Of a stretch of DNA of 64,000 nt, positions 10,036-57,848 are shown piece by piece; within the stretch, counting starts at the first letter, position 1; each line of letters starts with the position of its first letter. Source of the stretch: Gammaproteobacteria bacterium (GTDB taxonomy: Bacteria; Pseudomonadota; Gammaproteobacteria; Burkholderiales; Thiobacillaceae); assembly GCA_018820765.1 (NCBI GenBank), contig JAHJNN010000008.1, positions 186,001 through 250,000 on the forward strand, in the 5' to 3' direction. Made by a program: the position numbers and the translations under genes. The notes beneath the pieces are model-generated. The model worked only from the letters and a program-made list of their open reading frames with translations, was not told the DNA's origin and searched no databases.

Positions 10036-12027
10036 TCAGGGCGCGTACAGCGCGGTCGTCGACACCCTCGACCAGGCCGATTCCCGCAGCCAGATTTCGA
10101 GCTTGTCCGCGGGGATCGGTTTGCCCATCAGGTAGCCCTGTGAACTGTCGCAGCCGAGGATGGTGAGCGTGTCCCAGGCTGCCCGGGTTTCCACGCCTTC
10201 GGCGATCACTTTCAGTCCGAGGTTGTGCGCGAGTTCGATGGTGGAGCGCACGATGACGGCATCGTTGTCGTTGTTCTCCATGTCCATCACAAAGGATTTG
10301 TCGATTTTCAGCTTGTCGACCGGCAGCCGCTTGAGATAGGCGAGCGAGGAGTAGCCGGTACCGAAGTCGTCGATCGCAATCTTGATGCCCATGCGGTCGA
10401 GCTCGGTGAGGACGGCCAGCGCATCGCTGGTGTTTGCCATCACGGCGCTCTCGGTGATCTCCAGCGTGAGGCGTTGCGGCGCCACGCCGCTCCCGGCGAG
10501 CAGGTTCAGAACGCGATCGGGCAGTTCCATGTCCTGCAGGTCGCGCGCGGAGAGGTTGACCGCCATGCTCAGGTCATAGCCCTTTTGCTGCAGGCTCAGC
10601 AACTGACTCAATGCGGCCTCGAGCACCCAGAGGGTGAGCGGCCCGATCAGGCCGGCCTCTTCCGCCAGGGGGATGAATTGATCCGGCTTGAGGAAGCCGC
10701 GTTGCGGATGGTTCCAGCGCACCAGCGCCTCGAGGCCCACCACGCGTTTGCCGCGGTGTTCGATTTGCGGCTGATAGTGGAGGCTCAGCTGGTTCGACTG
10801 GATGGCTTCGCGCAACTCGCTCTTCAGCGAGAGGTCGCTGCAGTTGCTGTGATCCAGTTCAGGCGTGTACAGCGCGTAGTCCTTGCCTGCGCGTTTCGCC
10901 GCATACATCGCGATGTCGGCGCAACGCAGCAGTCCGTTGGCATCGCTGCACTGGGCGGGATACAGCGACACCCCCAGGCTTGCGCTGATGTCGATGCTCT
11001 GGTTTTTCCAGTGGAAGGGCTTGTCCAGGCAGGCGAGAATTTTTTTCGCAATGACCGGGAGATTTTTCGGGTTCAGGTCGTGGATCAGCAGCACGTATTC
11101 GTCGCCGCCCAGCCGCGCCACGGTGTCCACTGCACGAACCGCCTCCTTCAAGCGTTGCCCGGCTTCCCGCAGCAGTTCGTCGCCGACGTAATGGCCCAGG
11201 GTGTCGTTGACTTCCTTGAAGCGGTCCAGGTCCAGCAGCGCCACCCCGAACGAGGTATGCGTGCGCTTGGACACTTCGATCTCGCGTTCGAGTTGATTGT
11301 GCAGCAGGGCGCGGTTGGCCAGGCCGGTCAGCGGGTCGTACATGGCCTGGGTGGCGAGTTGCTCCGCCTGGCGGGTCACCCGCCGGCTGACAATCCAGGC
11401 AATGGCCATCCCCATCATCAGTGCCAGTGTGCCCAGCCCCAGCATCAGGTTGCGCACGCGCGCATACGAGGCTTCGGCATTGCGCATGGCGGCTGCCGTC
11501 TGCTCGCGCTGTAACTGAAGCAGGACGCCGACCTGTTCCGTGATGGCGCGTTGCCGGGGCATCGCCACGCTGCGGATGCGCTCGAAAATTTCCTGCTGGT
11601 CGTCATTGAAAATGGCCATTTCAACCACCGCCTGTACCTCGGGCTGCGCCTCGCGGGTCAGTTCGAGGATGTGGGCCAGGATGCGCCTTTCTTCGCGGCT
11701 GAGCGGCATGCTCTCGAGGCGCTCGCGCGCGCCCATGTAGATGGTGCCTTGCGAATTGAAGCGCAGGACCTCGGCGTCCTTTTCGAACGGGTCGGCCAGA
11801 ATCGGCAGGGCGTGCATGGCGAGCGCGCGCTCGCGCAGCGCGCTGTGCATCACGGTCGCGAGTTCGGTCTTGACGTTGTTGCCCTGGGCGATGTCCTTCA
11901 GGCGCTGGTTGGCTTCGGCCACATAGCGCAGGCCGGTCGCGCCGAGCGCGACCATCAGGGCGAGCACGACGATGAAGCCTACGCCGATCCATGCCCCCAT
12001 CCCCAGGGAGTGCGTGCGCTGATTCAT
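10036..12027 (-). CDS. membrane-bound GGDEF/EAL protein (c-di-GMP turnover)
   Basis: The 663 residues show a membrane segment (about 12-34), a helical periplasmic sensor region like a four-helix-bundle chemoreceptor domain (35-190), a second membrane segment (about 192-214), a GGDEF domain (about 230-395) and an EAL domain (about 410-655). The GGDEF core reads RLGGDEY with an RAVD inhibitory (I-site) motif five residues earlier, so the cyclase may be active and product-inhibited. The phosphodiesterase part keeps LEALVRW and IDDFGTGYSSLAYL. The protein therefore could make or degrade c-di-GMP; the net direction cannot be told from sequence. A FliA-like promoter is proposed upstream. Confidence 0.93.
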   Translation of the reverse strand: MNQRTHSLGMGAWIGVGFIVVLALMVALGATGLRYVAEANQRLKDIAQGNNVKTELATVMHSALRERALAMHALPILADPFEKDAEVLRFNSQGTIYMGARERLESMPLSREERRILAHILELTREAQPEVQAVVEMAIFNDDQQEIFERIRSVAMPRQRAITEQVGVLLQLQREQTAAAMRNAEASYARVRNLMLGLGTLALMMGMAIAWIVSRRVTRQAEQLATQAMYDPLTGLANRALLHNQLEREIEVSKRTHTSFGVALLDLDRFKEVNDTLGHYVGDELLREAGQRLKEAVRAVDTVARLGGDEYVLLIHDLNPKNLPVIAKKILACLDKPFHWKNQSIDISASLGVSLYPAQCSDANGLLRCADIAMYAAKRAGKDYALYTPELDHSNCSDLSLKSELREAIQSNQLSLHYQPQIEHRGKRVVGLEALVRWNHPQRGFLKPDQFIPLAEEAGLIGPLTLWVLEAALSQLLSLQQKGYDLSMAVNLSARDLQDMELPDRVLNLLAGSGVAPQRLTLEITESAVMANTSDALAVLTELDRMGIKIAIDDFGTGYSSLAYLKRLPVDKLKIDKSFVMDMENNDNDAVIVRSTIELAHNLGLKVIAEGVETRAAWDTLTILGCDSSQGYLMGKPIPADKLEIWLRESAWSRVSTTALYAP

Positions 12028-12081
12028 CGCTTAGGCGGGCGCTCCATTTTTATGTGATCTGGAAGAGGCCATTAACCTTGT

Positions 12082-50796: not shown

Positions 50797-50836
50797 TCTT
50801 CGCCGTCCGCCGCCAACCCTTATTTCTTCGCCGTGC
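50797..50836. repeat. 40-bp direct repeat, copy B (3' end of the E2-E3 gene)
   Basis: Identical to 50173-50212. In this copy it contains the last codons and TAA of the E2-E3 gene and the sequence leading to its terminator, so it is probably the original. Copies A and B are 624 bp apart and enclose hicBA. Confidence 0.9.
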
Positions 50837-53819
50837 GACGAAGGCGGTTCAACAACCGCCGCGCCAGTTCGCCGAACAGTTCGGTCTGCGTCGGGTGCGG
50901 GAAGATGGCTTTGGCCACCTGGGTCAGCGTCATCTCGCCCGCCACCATCATCACGCCGATGCCGATCAGGGTATCGGTGTGGTCGGCGAGGTAGTGCACG
51001 CCGATGATGCGGCCGCTGACCTTGTCGGCCACCAGCTTGATCATGCCCTCGGTCTCGCCGGTGATCATTGCCTTGGCGTCGATGCTCATCGGCATCTTGG
51101 CTTCCACTGCGTCGATGCCCTTGGCCTTGGCCTGCGCCACGCTCAAGCCTACAAAGCCGGCCTGCGGGCGCGAGAAGGTGACGCCGCAGTCCTTGTCCTG
51201 ATCGTATTCGGATGCGTGGCCCAGCAGGTTGCTGGCGGCGACGCGGCCTTGGGTGGCGGCGGTGTGGGCGAGCATGTAGCCGCCGATCACGTCGCCCACC
51301 GCGTAGATGTGCGGCGCGCTGGTCTGGCAACGCGTGTTGACCTTGATCGCCGCGCCGTCGAGCGCGACGCCGACCTTGTCCAGATTCAGCTTGCCGGTGT
51401 CGGGGCGCTTGCCGGTCGCCATCAGGACGACGTCGCAGTCGAACACCGACTCGACACCCTCCTTGTTCGCATAGCGCAGCTTCATCTTGCCGGGCTTGCC
51501 GCTGACTTCCTTGATGTCGGCGCTGGTGACGACGGTGATTTCCTTCTCCAGCGAGGCGATCAGGACCTTGCCGATCTCGTCCTCGATTTCGGCGAGGATG
51601 CGGTCGTTGCGCTCGACCATCAGCACCTCGGTGCCGAAGTCGCGGAAGATCTGCGCCATTTCGACGCCGATGACGCCGCCGCCGACGATGCCGAGCTTCT
51701 TCGGCGGGGTGGCAAGGTTCCAGATGGTGTCGGAGGTGGCCACGCCGCCCGTCGCCAGGTTTTCGCGCGCGCCGGGGATCGGCGGAACGAAGGCGGGGGC
51801 GCCGGTGGCGATGACGGCCGCGCCGAAGCTGACGGTGTAGGCCTCGCCCTCGACCGGGGTGATCTTCAGCGTATGGGTGTCGACGAATTCGCCGTAGCCT
51901 TCGCGCACGTCGATCTTCATGCCCTTGTCGGCTTTCAGCGCCATCTCGCCGCGGCTGGTTTGCACCCAGCGGCGATGCTTCTCGACCTGTTCCCAGTTGA
52001 GCTTGGGCGTATTGGTGCCGTCGACGCCCATCTCGGCGTCGTGCGCGCGGTTGCGGATGACGTCCGCCGCGGCGCGCCAGGCTTTGGACGGGATGCAGCC
52101 GCGCCACAGGCATTCGCCGCCGGGGAAGGGCTCGTTGTTGACCATCATCACCTTGATGCCATGGTCGGCCAGGTCGCGCGCGCAGTCCTCGCCGCCGGGG
52201 CCGCCGCCGACGACGACGACCGGGAAGTCCCAGTTGCCCTCGGGGATGGGCGACACCGGTGCGCTGGTGGTCGCGGCTGCGCCGGCGACGGATTCAGCCG
52301 CCGCGCCGCCCGCCATCCAGGCATCGGGCGCTTCGATGGTCTGTTTCAGCGTGGCGAGATACAGCGCCACCTCGGCGCCGTTCAGCACGCGGTGGTCGCA
52401 GGTGAGTGTGAACGGCGTGCCTTGCGGGCCATTGGCCGCAATCGCCAGGATCGCGGCGATGCCCGGCGTGGGAATCGCGGTGAAATGCGACACGCCCATC
52501 ATCCCCATGTTTGAAATGGTGAAGGTGGGGTTGGCGTATTCGGCGGGGGCGAGCTTGCGCACGCGGGCGCGCTCCACCAGGCCGGCCCAGTCGCCTTGCA
52601 GCGTGGCCAGGGATTTCTTTTCGATGCCGTGCAGGATCGGCACCACCAGGCCACCGTCGTTGGAGGTGACCGCGACGCCGAAGTCGTGGTTCGCGCGCTC
52701 GACCAGCTTGTCGACCGGCTGGTAGGCCCAGTTCATGCGCGGGAACTTCGCCATCGCGACCGAACAGGCCTTGGCGATCGCCACCGTCACCGAGACCTTG
52801 CTTGCCTTGGCGGCAGCGGTCAGCGCGGCGGTGTCGATGTTCATGGTGGCATGGAAGGTCGGCAGCGTCAGCGATGCGGTCATCGCGTGGGAGACGGCCT
52901 TTTCCATCGAGGTCATCTTGCGACCCTGGCCCGGCACGTCGACCTGCGGCAGCGAGTGCGCGACTTCCTGCATCGACGGACGCGCACGCGCCACGTCGGC
53001 GGCGACGATCACTCCCGAAGGGCCGGTTCCGGCCAGGCCGGTGAGGTTGACACCCAACTGCGCCGCGACCTTGCGCGCATAGGGGCTGGCCTGGCGGCCC
53101 GACGGACGCGCCACCGGCGGCAGGGCGCCTTCGGCGGAAATCTGCACCGGCGCGGCCTTAGGCATGGGGATGTGCGCCGGCTTGTCGGCCGCATGCGGAG
53201 CGACCTTGTGCATATTCTTGACCTGGTGGTCGGCGCTGATGGTGACCCCGGTGTCGTTGGCCTTGGCCGCGTCGTCGACGATGAAGCCCATCGGGTGGCC
53301 GACCTCGACCACGCTGCCGATGTCGGCGATCGGGCCGGAGAGCCACCCTTCCTGGAACACTTCGACGTCCATGATGGCCTTGTCGGTTTCCACCGTGGCG
53401 ACGATGTCGCCACGCTTGATGACGTCGCCCGGCTTCTTTTCCCAGGTGACGACGACGCCTTCGGTCATGGTGTCGGACAACTGCGGCATCACGACCGGCG
53501 TGCCGGCGTGGTGCGGGATCATCTCGGTCTGCGCCTGTTCTTCCACCACTTCGTCGGCGGCAATCGCCACGTCGCCCGCGGTGTCGGTGATGTAGCCGAG
53601 TGCAGCACCGACCGCGATGGTCGCGCCGACGTCAGCCAGCGGCCCGGCCAGGTAGCCGGCCTTGAACACCTCGACGTCCATGATGGCCTTGTCGGTTTCG
53701 ACCGTGGCGACGATGTCGCCGCGCTCGACCTTGTCGCCGGCCTGCTTCTCCCAGGTAACGACCACGCCCTCGGTCATGGTGTCCGAGAGCTGCGGCATCG
53801 TGATGGCGTAATGATTCAT
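50820..53819 (-). CDS. fused pyruvate dehydrogenase E2 (acetyltransferase) and E3 (dihydrolipoyl dehydrogenase)
   Basis: One 999-residue chain holds two near-identical lipoyl domains (lipoyl lysines at 44 and 147 in ETDKAIMDVEV), an E1/E3-binding domain (about 244-280; ASPYARKVAAQLGV), an E2 acyltransferase (about 295-500) and a full E3 (about 530-999). E3 has FAD motif VVVGGGPGGEDCARDL, redox disulfide CLWRGC (C570/C575), NAD motif IVGGGVIGVEM and catalytic histidine in PHPTQTE. The E2 motif reads DHRVLNG; the usual HxxxDG aspartate is asparagine. E2 and E3 are normally separate proteins. The ATG at 53819 has no visible Shine-Dalgarno because repeat sequence lies directly upstream. Confidence 0.93.
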   Translation of the reverse strand: MNHYAITMPQLSDTMTEGVVVTWEKQAGDKVERGDIVATVETDKAIMDVEVFKAGYLAGPLADVGATIAVGAALGYITDTAGDVAIAADEVVEEQAQTEMIPHHAGTPVVMPQLSDTMTEGVVVTWEKKPGDVIKRGDIVATVETDKAIMDVEVFQEGWLSGPIADIGSVVEVGHPMGFIVDDAAKANDTGVTISADHQVKNMHKVAPHAADKPAHIPMPKAAPVQISAEGALPPVARPSGRQASPYARKVAAQLGVNLTGLAGTGPSGVIVAADVARARPSMQEVAHSLPQVDVPGQGRKMTSMEKAVSHAMTASLTLPTFHATMNIDTAALTAAAKASKVSVTVAIAKACSVAMAKFPRMNWAYQPVDKLVERANHDFGVAVTSNDGGLVVPILHGIEKKSLATLQGDWAGLVERARVRKLAPAEYANPTFTISNMGMMGVSHFTAIPTPGIAAILAIAANGPQGTPFTLTCDHRVLNGAEVALYLATLKQTIEAPDAWMAGGAAAESVAGAAATTSAPVSPIPEGNWDFPVVVVGGGPGGEDCARDLADHGIKVMMVNNEPFPGGECLWRGCIPSKAWRAAADVIRNRAHDAEMGVDGTNTPKLNWEQVEKHRRWVQTSRGEMALKADKGMKIDVREGYGEFVDTHTLKITPVEGEAYTVSFGAAVIATGAPAFVPPIPGARENLATGGVATSDTIWNLATPPKKLGIVGGGVIGVEMAQIFRDFGTEVLMVERNDRILAEIEDEIGKVLIASLEKEITVVTSADIKEVSGKPGKMKLRYANKEGVESVFDCDVVLMATGKRPDTGKLNLDKVGVALDGAAIKVNTRCQTSAPHIYAVGDVIGGYMLAHTAATQGRVAASNLLGHASEYDQDKDCGVTFSRPQAGFVGLSVAQAKAKGIDAVEAKMPMSIDAKAMITGETEGMIKLVADKVSGRIIGVHYLADHTDTLIGIGVMMVAGEMTLTQVAKAIFPHPTQTELFGELARRLLNRLRRTAKK

Positions 53820-53826
53820 AGGATTT

Positions 53827-53851
53827 AGGGGTCAGGATTCAGGGGTCAGGG
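53827..53851 (+). repeat. 25-bp inverted repeat, left copy, flanking the four-helix-bundle gene
   Basis: Built from iterations of AGGGGTCAGG and ATTCAGGGGTCAGG; the repeat sequence continues to about 53860. It is the perfect inverse complement of 54226-54250. It occupies the leader of the E2-E3 gene. Confidence 0.92.
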
Positions 53852-53852
53852 G

Positions 53853-54224
53853 TCAGGGAGTTGGCAATGGTTTTACGGCCAGAGCGCTTCTCAAGCCATG
53901 CAACATACGGCCAACCTCGTTCGTCTGCTCAAGCAGACGATGCAACACGGCTTGGGTGATATAACCCAGCCGGTGCGCGAGTTCGAGCTGTGTTTCTGCT
54001 TCAGCCAGCGAACCCTGCGAAATCGATAGAAAACGCAAGTAATCCTTTGTCGAATTTCTTGCGTGACCTTCGGCAATATTGGAAGGGATGGAAACAGCTG
54101 CGCGCTGGAGTTGATTGGCCAGCGCATAGGTTTCCCGGGAAGGGAAGGATTCGGTCGCCCGGTAGATGTCTTCTGTCAGCATCATCGCCATCTGCCAGAC
54201 TTTCAGATCACGGTAGTTATTCAT
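53853..54224 (-). CDS. four-helix-bundle protein (23S rRNA intervening-sequence / Avd-like family)
   Basis: The 123-residue protein matches the TIGR02436/S23 four-helix-bundle family: NNYRDLKVWQMAMMLTEDIY, FPSRETYALANQLQRAAVSIPSNIAEGHARNS, YLRFLSISQGSLAEAETQLELAHRLGYI. Members occur in rRNA intervening sequences and, as Avd, in diversity-generating retroelements; no reverse transcriptase is nearby here. It sits between pdhB and the E2-E3 gene. Its ATG is 1 nt from one inverted repeat and its TGA is 1 nt past the other. Base composition is visibly less GC-rich than its neighbours. Purine-rich repeat sequence (AGGGG) upstream of the ATG may act as the ribosome site. Confidence 0.88.
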   Translation of the reverse strand: MNNYRDLKVWQMAMMLTEDIYRATESFPSRETYALANQLQRAAVSIPSNIAEGHARNSTKDYLRFLSISQGSLAEAETQLELAHRLGYITQAVLHRLLEQTNEVGRMLHGLRSALAVKPLPTP

Positions 54225-54225
54225 G

Positions 54226-54250
54226 CCCTGACCCCTGAATCCTGACCCCT
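54226..54250 (-). repeat. 25-bp inverted repeat, right copy, flanking the four-helix-bundle gene
   Basis: Perfect inverse complement of 53827-53851. It lies 6 bp past the pdhB stop and 1 bp before the four-helix-bundle start codon. Confidence 0.92.
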
Positions 54251-54256
54251 GATCCC

Positions 54257-55240
54257 TCAAGCTTTCCCGAACAGCTTCAGTACAGCTTTCACCACATCCT
54301 CGTGATCCGGGATCGCCGCTTTTTCCAGCGTGTGGTTGTAAGGCTGCGGCACCAGGGCCGAGTGGACGCGCACCGGGGCGGCGTCCAGTTCGAAGAAGCA
54401 CTCTTCGTTGATGATGGCGATGACTTCGGAGCCGACGCCAACCGGGGCTTCGTCTTCTTCGGCGATGACGGCGCGGTGGGTCTTACTGACCGATGCCTTG
54501 ATGCCTGCGCGATCCAGCGGCGACAGCGAGTAGAGGTCGACGACCTCGGCCGAGATGCCGTACTGCTTGTCGAGGATTTCGGCGGCCTTCAAACACCAGT
54601 GCACCGAGACGTTGTAGCCGAAGAGCGTCACGTCGGTGCCGGCGCGCGCGACGTCCGAACCTTCCAGCGGATGGAAGTATTCGCCGTCGGGCACTTCGCC
54701 CTTCATGTTGTACATGAGTTCGTGTTCGTTGATGAACACCGGGTCGTCGCAGCGGATCGCCGACTTCAGAAGGCCGTAGGCCTGCTTGGGGTTGGACGGC
54801 GTCACCACGCGCAGGCCGGCGATGCCCATGAACACCTTCTCCATGCGCGCCGAGTGCTGCGCGCCGAGCTGGTGCGCGGCGCCGCCGGCGGAGCGGAACA
54901 CGCACGGTGCGGTCAGCTGGCCGCCCGACATGTAGCGCACCTTGGCGGCGGAGTTGAACATCTGGTCCATCGCCAGCCAGGCGAAGTTGACCGACATGAT
55001 TTCGATGACGGGACGCACGCCGAGGAAGGACGCGCCGATGCCCAGCCCGGTGAAGCCGCCTTCTGAAATGGGGGTATCCATCACGCGCAGAGGGCCGTAT
55101 TTTTCGTACAGGCCCTTGGTGGCCTTGTAGGTGCCGCCGGCTACGCCGATGTCTTCGCCCATGCAGATGACCAGTGGGTCACGCGCCATTTCTTCGTCGT
55201 GGGCGCGCTGGATCGCTTCCCAGTACATGATGTTTGCCAT
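54257..55240 (-). CDS. pdhB: pyruvate dehydrogenase E1 component, beta subunit
   Basis: The 327-residue protein has the transketolase pyrimidine-binding fold of E1 beta: VICMGEDIGVAGGTYKATKGLYEKYG, RVMDTPISEGGFTGLGIGASFLG, PCVFRSAGGAAHQLGAQHS, VVTPSNPKQAYGLL, and a C-terminal domain with AVIAEEDEAPVGVG. With E1 alpha it decarboxylates pyruvate and acetylates the E2 lipoyl groups. It lies 19 bp after pdhA. A four-helix-bundle cassette separates it from the E2-E3 gene. Exact 2-oxoacid specificity (pyruvate, acetoin or branched-chain) is inferred. Confidence 0.92.
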   Translation of the reverse strand: MANIMYWEAIQRAHDEEMARDPLVICMGEDIGVAGGTYKATKGLYEKYGPLRVMDTPISEGGFTGLGIGASFLGVRPVIEIMSVNFAWLAMDQMFNSAAKVRYMSGGQLTAPCVFRSAGGAAHQLGAQHSARMEKVFMGIAGLRVVTPSNPKQAYGLLKSAIRCDDPVFINEHELMYNMKGEVPDGEYFHPLEGSDVARAGTDVTLFGYNVSVHWCLKAAEILDKQYGISAEVVDLYSLSPLDRAGIKASVSKTHRAVIAEEDEAPVGVGSEVIAIINEECFFELDAAPVRVHSALVPQPYNHTLEKAAIPDHEDVVKAVLKLFGKA

Positions 55241-56375: not shown

Positions 56376-57848
56376 ATGCTGCCTAAACTCGCTGAAAACA
56401 AACAGGAAATCACCGCCAAAACGCTCGAATCCACAGCCCATGCGCTGCTGCTGCTGCCGCTGTCGAAAACCCTGCCCGAGATGCCCGGCAGCGCTGAGCT
56501 GAAGGCTGTGATGAAGCGGCGCGACCTGAAAATCGACTCGCTGGCGAAGTCGCCGGTGGCGCTGCAGCTGCCCGGCGGCACGCTCGCGGTGGTCGCCATG
56601 CTGAAAGCCGACGCCAGCACTTTCGAAGCCCACGAACAGGTGCGCAAGGCATTGGCTTTGCTGATGGCCGAGCATCCGAAGTCGCTGACGCTGGCCGTGT
56701 TCGGCGACGCCGCGTTCAAGGCGCGCGCGGCCGACGCCGCGGTGTACGCCGCGCTGGTCAATGCCGTGCCGCTGCCGTCGCGCAAATCCAAGCCCGATGC
56801 CGCCCTCAAGTCCGTTCAACTGTTCGGCCACAAATCCGCCGACGGTTTCGCCCGCGTGCAGGCGCTGGCCGAAGGCAACCTCCTCACTCGCAGCCTCACC
56901 GTGCAGGGGCCGGACGAACTCACCCCCGGCGTCTACCGCAAGCGTATCAAGGCGCTGGCCAAGCAATACGGCTGGACGGTCGAGGAATTTGCTTTCGACA
57001 AGCTGAAGAAAATGGGGGCGGGCGCCTTCTGTGCCGTGGCGCAGGGTTCACCGGCGAAGGATGCGGCGATCGTGCGCATCAGCTACAAAGGGCCGAAGGG
57101 CAAGGGGTCAGGAGTCAGGGGTCAGGGGTCAGGGAAGAAGGTGGCGTTCGTGGGCAAGGGCATCTGCTTCGATACGGGCGGACATAATTTGAAACCCGCC
57201 AAGTACATGCAGGGCATGCACGAGGACATGAACGGGTCGGCGGTGGTGCTCGGCATCCTGGCCGCGGCCTCCAAGCTGAAGCTGCCGGTCGCGCTGGAAG
57301 GCTGGGTCGCGCTTGCCGAAAACCACATCAGTCCGCAGGCCTACCGCCAGAACGAAGTGGTGACGGCGCTCAACGGCACCACCATCGAAGTTGTCCACAC
57401 CGACGCCGAAGGCCGCATGGTGCTGGCCGACACGCTGACGCTGGCCGCAAAAGGTAAGCCCGACCTGATCGCCGACTTCGCCACGCTCACCGGCTCCATG
57501 CACTACGCGCTCGGCAGCCGCATGTCCGGCGTGTTCGCCTCGTCCAGCGCGATCGCGCATCAGGCCTCGCGCGCCGCTACTTCAAGTGGCGAGCGCATCG
57601 TCGTTTTCCCCTATCCCGAGGACTACGACAGCAGCCTCGATTCCACGGTGGCCGACGTCAAGCAGTGCAGCATGGAAGGCGAGGCCGACCACATTCTCGC
57701 CACCCGCTTCCTGTCGCGCTTCGTCGGCGACACGCCGTGGCTGCACATGGACCTGTCGGCGCACAGCTGCAAGGGCGGCCTGGGCGCGGTGATGAGCGAT
57801 GCCAGCGGCTTCGGCGTGGCGTGGGCGCTGGCCTTGCTGGAAGGCTAG
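56376..57848 (+). CDS. pepA: M17 leucyl aminopeptidase with an in-frame repeat insertion
   Basis: The 490-residue protein is a two-metal cytosolic aminopeptidase: KVAFVGKGICFDTGGHNLKP, MHEDMNGSAVVLG, TDAEGRMVLADTL, DFATLTGSMHYALG. Residues 244-253 (GSGVRGQGSG), just before the catalytic core, come from a 33-bp repeat (57103-57135) that matches the one flanking the four-helix-bundle gene. The frame stays open, so the enzyme is probably functional with an added flexible linker. AAGGA before the ATG at 56376 sets the start; the open frame continues far upstream as antisense to pdhA and is not used. Confidence 0.9.
   Translation: MLPKLAENKQEITAKTLESTAHALLLLPLSKTLPEMPGSAELKAVMKRRDLKIDSLAKSPVALQLPGGTLAVVAMLKADASTFEAHEQVRKALALLMAEHPKSLTLAVFGDAAFKARAADAAVYAALVNAVPLPSRKSKPDAALKSVQLFGHKSADGFARVQALAEGNLLTRSLTVQGPDELTPGVYRKRIKALAKQYGWTVEEFAFDKLKKMGAGAFCAVAQGSPAKDAAIVRISYKGPKGKGSGVRGQGSGKKVAFVGKGICFDTGGHNLKPAKYMQGMHEDMNGSAVVLGILAAASKLKLPVALEGWVALAENHISPQAYRQNEVVTALNGTTIEVVHTDAEGRMVLADTLTLAAKGKPDLIADFATLTGSMHYALGSRMSGVFASSSAIAHQASRAATSSGERIVVFPYPEDYDSSLDSTVADVKQCSMEGEADHILATRFLSRFVGDTPWLHMDLSAHSCKGGLGAVMSDASGFGVAWALALLEG
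57103..57135 (+). repeat. 33-bp solo copy of the GGGGTCAGG repeat inside pepA
   Basis: Matches 53827-53859 at 32 of 33 positions. Its frame encodes a Gly/Ser/Arg/Gln linker without stops. Confidence 0.9.

Follow-up and report, generated by a model that had tools for sequence, protein, structure and literature searches.

Inverted heptanucleotide arrays around an S23 four-helix-bundle gene in Thiobacillus suggest a possible partner protein for a dispersed bacterial repeat family

RAYT genes have their REPs, palindromes with a GTAG-type head, on either side. In the REPIN-RAYT system, as set out in the portions of PMC3116915 and PMC8049555 drawn on here, a single trans-acting gene lies amid its own repeat, which also occurs as many short, convergent, intergenic copies. 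A different kind of element is found within 23S rRNA genes: the Coxiella intervening sequence is 428 nt long, contains an S23 open reading frame, ends in a 28-bp terminal stem, and is excised by RNase III in vitro (PMC4990558, in part).

Heptanucleotide arrays have been described separately. In the available sections of PMC4692102, Rehm et al. report the heptamer GGGAATC in two Xanthomonas genomes (186 and 183 arrays, of which 70 and 75 are convergent pairs) and GGGGA(C/T)T heptamers in Nostoc; these repeats are mostly intergenic, lie mostly between co-directional genes, prefer four units, and vary in sequence between close species. Those sections propose no partner protein, and a term search of the article's text returned neither 'four helix', 'four-helix' nor 'XCC0516'. 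MacGregor describes TAACTGA arrays in Beggiatoaceae, with no transmission mechanism evident in the part of the article consulted (PMC4679880). Finally, the Avd proteins of diversity-generating retroelements, a family homologous to S23, act as accessory proteins for nucleic-acid copying (PMC10053308, in part).

The locus of interest lies in a window of 64,000 nt (the whole stretch of DNA analysed) from a 3.44-Mb Thiobacillus genome. Its central gene (53853..54224, minus strand; 123 aa) is a member of the four-helix-bundle family S23, or 23S_rRNA_IVP / TIGR02436: the open reading frame matches PF05635 with E=1.6e-41 (141 bits, curated cut-off 33.8) and TIGR02436 with E=8.9e-40 (135 bits, curated cut-off 24), and has a homologue of solved structure, PDB 2gsc (E=1.2e-27). 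The predicted pI of the protein is 8.1. To our knowledge, S23 has no known enzymatic activity, and the solved S23 structures carry molecule names that mark them as uncharacterized. The gene is the sole PF05635 match found in its genome, and its nearest named relatives among the best 80 in GTDB genomes are from Thiobacillus. Directly upstream lies a pdhB-like gene (54257..55240, minus strand) and directly downstream an E2-E3 (aceF-lpd like) fusion gene (50820..53819, minus strand); the S23 element fills the gap from the pdhB-like stop codon to the E2-E3 start. The fusion gene is itself of interest, in that E2 and E3 of the pyruvate dehydrogenase complex form a single 999-aa open reading frame, with an N-terminal duplication that is 82% alike over 175 nt.

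The S23 gene is bordered by two arms, each of which is an array of a heptanucleotide unit. The upstream arm (54226..54257, minus strand) carries five AGG anchors spaced 7 nt apart, is G-rich on the coding (minus) strand, and reaches its end at the pdhB stop codon. The downstream arm (53820..53858, plus strand) has six 7-spaced anchors and is rich in G on its plus strand; the S23 stop codon falls inside it, and it extends as far as the E2-E3 start. An earlier reading, made from the sequence alone, had reported perfect 25-bp inverted repeats around a single gene with a base composition unlike that of its neighbours. Both observations hold: the repeats occupy 53827-53851 and 54226-54250, and the element has a GC content of 52.6% against 65.0% for the window, within the lowest 1% of 363-nt windows. 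The start codon does indeed lie 1 nt from its arm; the stop codon, which had been placed 1 nt past the other arm, in fact falls inside it (it is the TGA of CCCTGACCCC). Neither is the repeat an iteration of the 9-nt unit GGGGTCAGG, as had been proposed: the unit is 7 nt, AGGGGTC / AGGATTC. Beyond the perfect 25 bp, the similarity of the arms extends to 32 nt at 91%. Since the rest of the window contains only three pairs of perfect inverted 16-mers within 600 nt of each other, the 25-bp pair is not a chance occurrence. The two arms are predicted to pair when the element folds, at an energy of -194 kcal/mol; 20 shuffles average -137 (sd 8.7).

The element resembles the 23S rRNA intervening sequences in size (~430 nt), in its protein family, and in its pairing terminal inverted repeats (PMC4990558, in part); that members of this family occur in such sequences had been stated correctly by the sequence-only reading. 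It differs from them in that it lies between a pdhB-like and an E2-E3 gene rather than in 23S rRNA, and in that its arms are heptad arrays common to a genome-wide family. A search of 80 S23 loci for five 23S rRNA words found none. Two differences from Avd were also recorded: a profile search of this genome returned no match to the reverse transcriptase family PF00078, and the S23 protein scores below the cut-offs of the Avd families (NF033474, 34 bits against 80; PF22296, 33.6 bits against 40).

A solo copy of the repeat, likewise noticed from the letters alone, is present at 57103..57135 (plus strand), in frame within a gene that we take to be aminopeptidase-like. Of 17 related loci, 11 are readable at this site: ten have an array (TGA-type in one, L047), and one (L045) has none. 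The repeat is not rare. A three-unit heptad pattern with up to two mismatches gives 130 overlapping matches in the 3.44 Mb, while the reversed-pattern control gives none; a tandem array yields several overlapping matches, and these numbers therefore count matches rather than arrays. Inspection of 100 of the 130 places, in 39 fetched stretches, revealed 35 short convergent elements (85–161 bp), ten lone arrays, and the S23 pair. The short elements consist of a G-rich array, a core, and a second array in inverse orientation; the core contains a GC-rich hairpin in 27 of the 35 (by a simple test). Among these 100 places, S23 is the sole gene between paired arrays, the other pairs being short, and hence most copies are without a gene.

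The elements occupy intergenic gaps, many beside housekeeping genes—nuoI-nuoJ, hscB, hslU, accC, gcvH-gcvP, dnaJ, atpC, guaB-guaA, and gap, by our reading of the translations without family search—and at the sites read they abut the stop and start codons of the neighbouring genes. With its dispersed convergent pairs and hairpin cores, the family is REPIN-like. It departs from REPIN-RAYT in several respects: (i) the gene is a helix bundle without a transposase match, and no Y1 gene is flanked by the repeat (there are four Y1_Tnp profile matches in the genome, and no heptad array within 1.5 kb of any of them), (ii) its repeat is built as a heptad array, whose length varies, and (iii) copies at the same site bear different arms in different genomes. 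The family also resembles the Xanthomonas and Nostoc heptamers, which are likewise intergenic arrays with convergent pairs dispersed over the genome and with a sequence that varies between close species (PMC4692102, available sections). The same genome contains, in addition, seven matches to another heptad, GAGAGTC, including a convergent pair (G000:C11:437515-437603, and five other places). It has no S23 of the GAGAGTC type, and these arrays are possibly relics of a lost one.

The association between S23 and heptad arrays extends well beyond Thiobacillus. The 80 best S23 relatives in GTDB genomes—a sample of the S23 family that is biased by best-hit choice—span Thiobacillus, Gallionella, Planctomycetes, Chloroflexi, Acidobacteria, Cyanobacteria, Bacteroidales, and Clostridia. 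Among the 60 of these loci used, flanks with both an inverted match of at least 16/20 and a heptad-periodic run of at least four were seen at 53 S23 genes, compared with 2 among 256 neighbouring genes taken from those loci as controls (Fisher p=8e-50). An inverted match of at least 16 over 20 nt is found at 68 of 77 S23 loci (three had short flanks and were left out) versus 54 of 2450 random places in the same loci; at a threshold of at least 18, these numbers become 50 and 4. When periods of 5–9 were compared at 57 of the 80 loci, only 7 was clearly above controls; period 6 showed a slight excess, and 5, 8, and 9 nothing comparable. Several S23 loci below threshold display partial arrays by eye.

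The flanking unit varies: GGGGTCA, GGGGCTA, GAGAGTC, GTTAGTC, GGGTGTC, AGTTTCT, and many more were encountered. Six genomes outside Thiobacillus have an S23 flanked by TAGTCGT, and all six hold further TAGTCGT arrays (10, 5, 1, 6, 23, and 8 matches, those beside the S23 gene removed); among 14 genomes whose S23 has a different heptad, one has a single match (p=2e-4). S23 genes are found on plasmids as well: 34 records matched, and in the 16 looked at, arrays—including CTAAAAG and GGGAACA—lie beside most by eye. In two of these (L398 and L400) both flanking arrays run in the same direction rather than inverted.

Four distant loci (L399, L400, L403, and L404) have arrays that look octameric by eye, for example GAGGAGCA and GAGAGTGG. 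On three cyanobacterial plasmids (L393, L397, and L406) the S23 gene is part of a CRISPR operon: two of them have it flanked by cas6 and cas4, and the other by cas10 and a cmr3-like gene. At L105, the downstream S23 flank is TAACTGC, one letter off the TAACTGA of Beggiatoaceae, and the closest S23 flank to that heptamer that was noticed. The TAACTGA arrays are similar to the present ones in being short, intergenic, and found in scattered phyla, and dissimilar in being mostly direct arrays upstream of start codons (PMC4679880, in the part consulted).

Within the genus, S23 is present in 32 of 56 Thiobacillus genomes, with 48 genes above the cut-off. Both flank features are seen at 42 of the 47 genes with sufficiently long flanks (one was left out); the other five are L166, L173 (which has lost one arm), L180, L243, and L248. 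Several loci are occupied. As in our genome, the pdhB-aceF junction carries S23 in 20 of 56 genomes, with GGGGTCA arms in 15 and GGGGCTA arms in five. Further loci, named from the ends of the flanking frames and read by eye, are guaB-guaA (GAGAGTC), yebC-ruvC (GGGGTGA or GGCGTGA), rfbB-rfbA (GAGCGGG, GTGAGTG, or GGGAGTG), and one more (TTACAAG or TTCAAGA). Two S23 genes of relatives have unusual structures. At L173 (G015:C232, around 11762-12067) the S23 frame is open into E2, giving a frame of 1121 aa that fuses S23 to a host enzyme, and the downstream array is missing. At L253 (G029:C25:11736-12052), at the pdh junction, S23 is split into two matches while the genome keeps 39 TCA matches, a possible case of recent S23 loss with the arrays left behind.

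These data bear on whether the gene moves. The sequence-only reading had pictured a minimal mobile cassette, and it was right to the extent that the arms belong to a dispersed repeat family most copies of which, at the 100 places inspected, hold no gene; further copies are thus present in this genome and in relatives. A hopping gene, on the other hand, is not what is seen: S23 occupies a common junction in the 20 genomes, its tree follows the locus, and on these sequence comparisons it is a gene without a recent move. The suggested search for empty pdhB-aceF sites produced no short one. Eight genomes are unreadable here, and the 28 readable junctions without S23 have gaps of 64–198 bp; in 20 of these gaps an inverted repeat exceeds what each of 20 shuffles gives. 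By type, ten are heptad, 11 CGCGAAG, and seven other. In the 11, a CGCGAAG-rich inverted element fills the junction. Sites with and without an element do exist at nuoI-nuoJ, where the gap is 10 nt and free of any element in three genomes (G010, G040, and G024), and where our genome and five relatives carry one. Comparison of the occupied and 10-nt alleles shows no target-site duplication readable by eye. The cassette reading is partly supported; it is chiefly the array, rather than the gene, that seems to move or get rewritten.

The type of heptad array in a genome mostly tracks the type of S23. Matches to four heptads were counted in the 56 Thiobacillus genomes, with those beside S23 genes removed; since the genomes are related, the p-values overstate the evidence. 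The median number of GGGGTCA matches is 36 in the 15 genomes with a matching S23 versus 5 in the 41 without (p=4e-6), that of GGGGCTA is 53 in five genomes versus 0 in 51 (p=3e-4), and that of GGGGTGA is 4 in seven genomes versus 1 in 49 (p=0.003). GAGAGTC was rejected as a fourth genome-wide association, being significant only until the S23-flank matches were removed (p=0.06 thereafter, 56 genomes): in G009 and G047 all matches lie beside S23, only G003 has further ones (9), and the largest number (18) occurs in G005, where no S23 was found. The correspondence has exceptions. A TCA S23 goes with just 2 further matches in G001 and 1 in G046, and with 33 CTA matches in G002 and 69 in G045; 29 CTA matches occur in G014, where no S23 was found; and G025 and G053 contain 29 and 30 TCA matches with no TCA S23 found (the G025 assembly is 81% complete and lacks the pdh junction). 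At two loci (L184 and L199) the arrays themselves are mixed CTA/TCA.

The S23 tree is in keeping with this pattern. Across 47 proteins (of 50; three were not recovered by the motif used, and the tree carries a long-branch warning), the heptad labels need 10 changes, which is the minimum, compared with a mean of 32.3 for shuffled labels. The CTA clade (support 99/99) branches from within the TCA group and shares its locus, and therefore gene and repeat changed jointly without moving. Among the S23 residues at the three within-locus heptad switches, two alignment columns change in all three, which is too few cases to assign a code.

A similar picture emerges from orthologous sites. Twelve sites, chosen as TCA in our genome, were looked up in nine relatives, filling 96 of 108 cells. 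In genomes with a TCA S23 the arms are TCA in 11 cells and CTA in 2; in genomes with a CTA S23 they are TCA in 7 and CTA in 37 (Fisher p=1e-5; the 57 CTA-genome cells also include 4 TGA, 8 unclear or empty, and 1 other site). By eye, the hairpin cores at hslU, gcvP, hscB, and dnaJ are alike in TCA- and CTA-armed alleles. Cores that are alike with arms that differ indicate that the arms changed while the element stayed, and by this comparison of alleles the elements seem to be rewritten in place.

The length of the arrays provides the strongest hint as to mechanism. Counting as anchors AGG or CGG spaced exactly 7 nt, exactly five are present in 45 of 69 arrays of our genome, and in 77 of 140 at places in relatives. 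At 57 non-Thiobacillus loci, the longest run per flank is most often five (36 of 113, against 20 with six and 19 with four), while controls peak at two; arrays with 9–13 anchors also exist. The title of the paper on the homologue structure 2gsc (protein XCC0516) names five four-helix bundles. Both 2gsc and a second homologue structure, 2rld, contain five chains each. If one heptad is bound per S23 subunit, as we propose, an array of five anchors spaced 7 nt apart would be what one pentamer reads. A parallel exists in TRAP, a ring that reads eleven RNA triplets. The number five could also stem from a different constraint, for instance quadruplex formation, which takes four G-tracts. As a general principle the quadruplex was discarded, since S23 flanks are without long G-runs at L054, L111, L180, and L393; the G-run-poor heptads GTTAGTC, CTAAAAG, and TTACAAG, all of which flank S23, likewise argue against a quadruplex-only reading.

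We propose that S23 is the trans-acting partner of a two-part repeat system, helping matching heptad arrays to spread and to overwrite others; from the sequence comparisons above, we give this reading a probability of roughly one half. The first part would be S23 itself, a pentameric four-helix bundle that is inherited in place within an operon and has its own heptad type. The second would be the heptad array, which comes in convergent pairs. Such a pair may enclose the S23 gene, but the great majority sit in intergenic gaps and enclose a short core that is usually a GC-rich hairpin. Each S23 lineage would recognise its own heptad, most likely one per subunit, on single-stranded RNA or DNA. 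Array-bound S23 would then aid both the spread of arrays and the overwriting of other arrays at existing elements, being a cause of array spread rather than a follower, such that the arms of a genome's elements drift toward the type of the resident S23. The route is probably strand annealing for host replication or recombination: annealing or copying via host machinery is proposed because no array lies near the Y1 genes, no reverse transcriptase match was obtained, and S23 is without known enzymatic activity.

The main rival is an RNA-processing element comparable to the rRNA intervening sequences, because an intervening sequence with the same open reading frame is cut by RNase III and because the arms pair here. 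The arms would pair in the mRNA and RNase III would remove the S23 segment, or the core; arrays would be kept as processing or stability signals internal to operons, S23 would bind the excised RNA, and any spread would be slow and incidental. The predicted fold of our element, the Coxiella precedent, and the position of elements right at stop and start codons between genes all fit. What processing alone leaves unexplained is why the heptad sequence, beyond its capacity to pair, goes with the S23 lineage and, for the most part, with the genome, why the period is 7 in many phyla, and why lone arrays exist. We therefore consider it unlikely as the whole explanation; processing and array spread by S23 may both apply. 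Somewhat less probable again is that S23 is a passenger, riding along by chance with arrays that grow by polymerase slippage—as proposed for heptamers in the available sections of PMC4692102—and spread by homologous recombination. Long arrays of 9–13 anchors, the mixed arrays at L184 and L199, and the persistence of arrays in genomes without a matching S23 are all as such a process would have them. It is difficult to see, however, how chance would place one gene family between arrays of many sequences (53 of 60 loci versus 2 of 256 other genes) and no other gene between paired arrays at the 100 places inspected, or why most comparisons show array type and S23 type in agreement.

Two explanations that rely on a transposase fare considerably worse, and we regard each as highly improbable. 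One is that a Y1 transposase of the RAYT type moves the elements as REPINs, with S23 accessory or unrelated; the convergent pairs with hairpin cores and the four Y1_Tnp matches speak for it, but the arrays flank S23 rather than any of the four Y1 genes. The other is the minimal cassette, in which a transposase encoded at a different place acts on the 25-bp ends to mobilise the S23 gene. In its favour are the closeness of perfect inverted ends to the gene and the atypical GC content; against it stand the common junction in 20 of 56 genomes, the failure to read a target-site duplication by eye at nuoI-nuoJ, and ends that differ (TCA or CTA) between orthologues around the same gene.

A broader version of the two-part proposal is that S23 proteins are general partners of bacterial heptanucleotide repeats: a pentameric ring whose subunits each read one heptad, which thereby counts arrays in fives, co-evolves with its heptad in the manner of a code, and rewrites the arms of existing elements genome-wide without a transposase or reverse transcriptase. 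This we hold tentatively, and as somewhat less probable than the proposal for Thiobacillus. X. campestris has an S23 protein, XCC0516, and a link between S23 and the Xanthomonas GGGAATC repeats is a prediction of this view. In the open-licence literature, outside which most subscription papers lie, we found no report linking S23 to heptad repeats.

Some bacterial genomes are rich in heptamer repeats, whose role the available text of PMC4692102 leaves open. The joint change of gene and repeat among Thiobacillus relatives suggests that S23 may be the missing partner of this common repeat class. The link would give S23 and the heptamers each a partner, together with a specificity code (heptad versus S23 lineage) and a stoichiometry (five anchors, five subunits), and may explain how repeats spread with no known transposase involved. 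If the broader version is true, the tandem heptamers of cyanobacteria, the GGGAATC repeats of Xanthomonas, and the TAACTGA repeats would have a single origin, and the rRNA intervening sequences would be a special case of a heptad-armed element.
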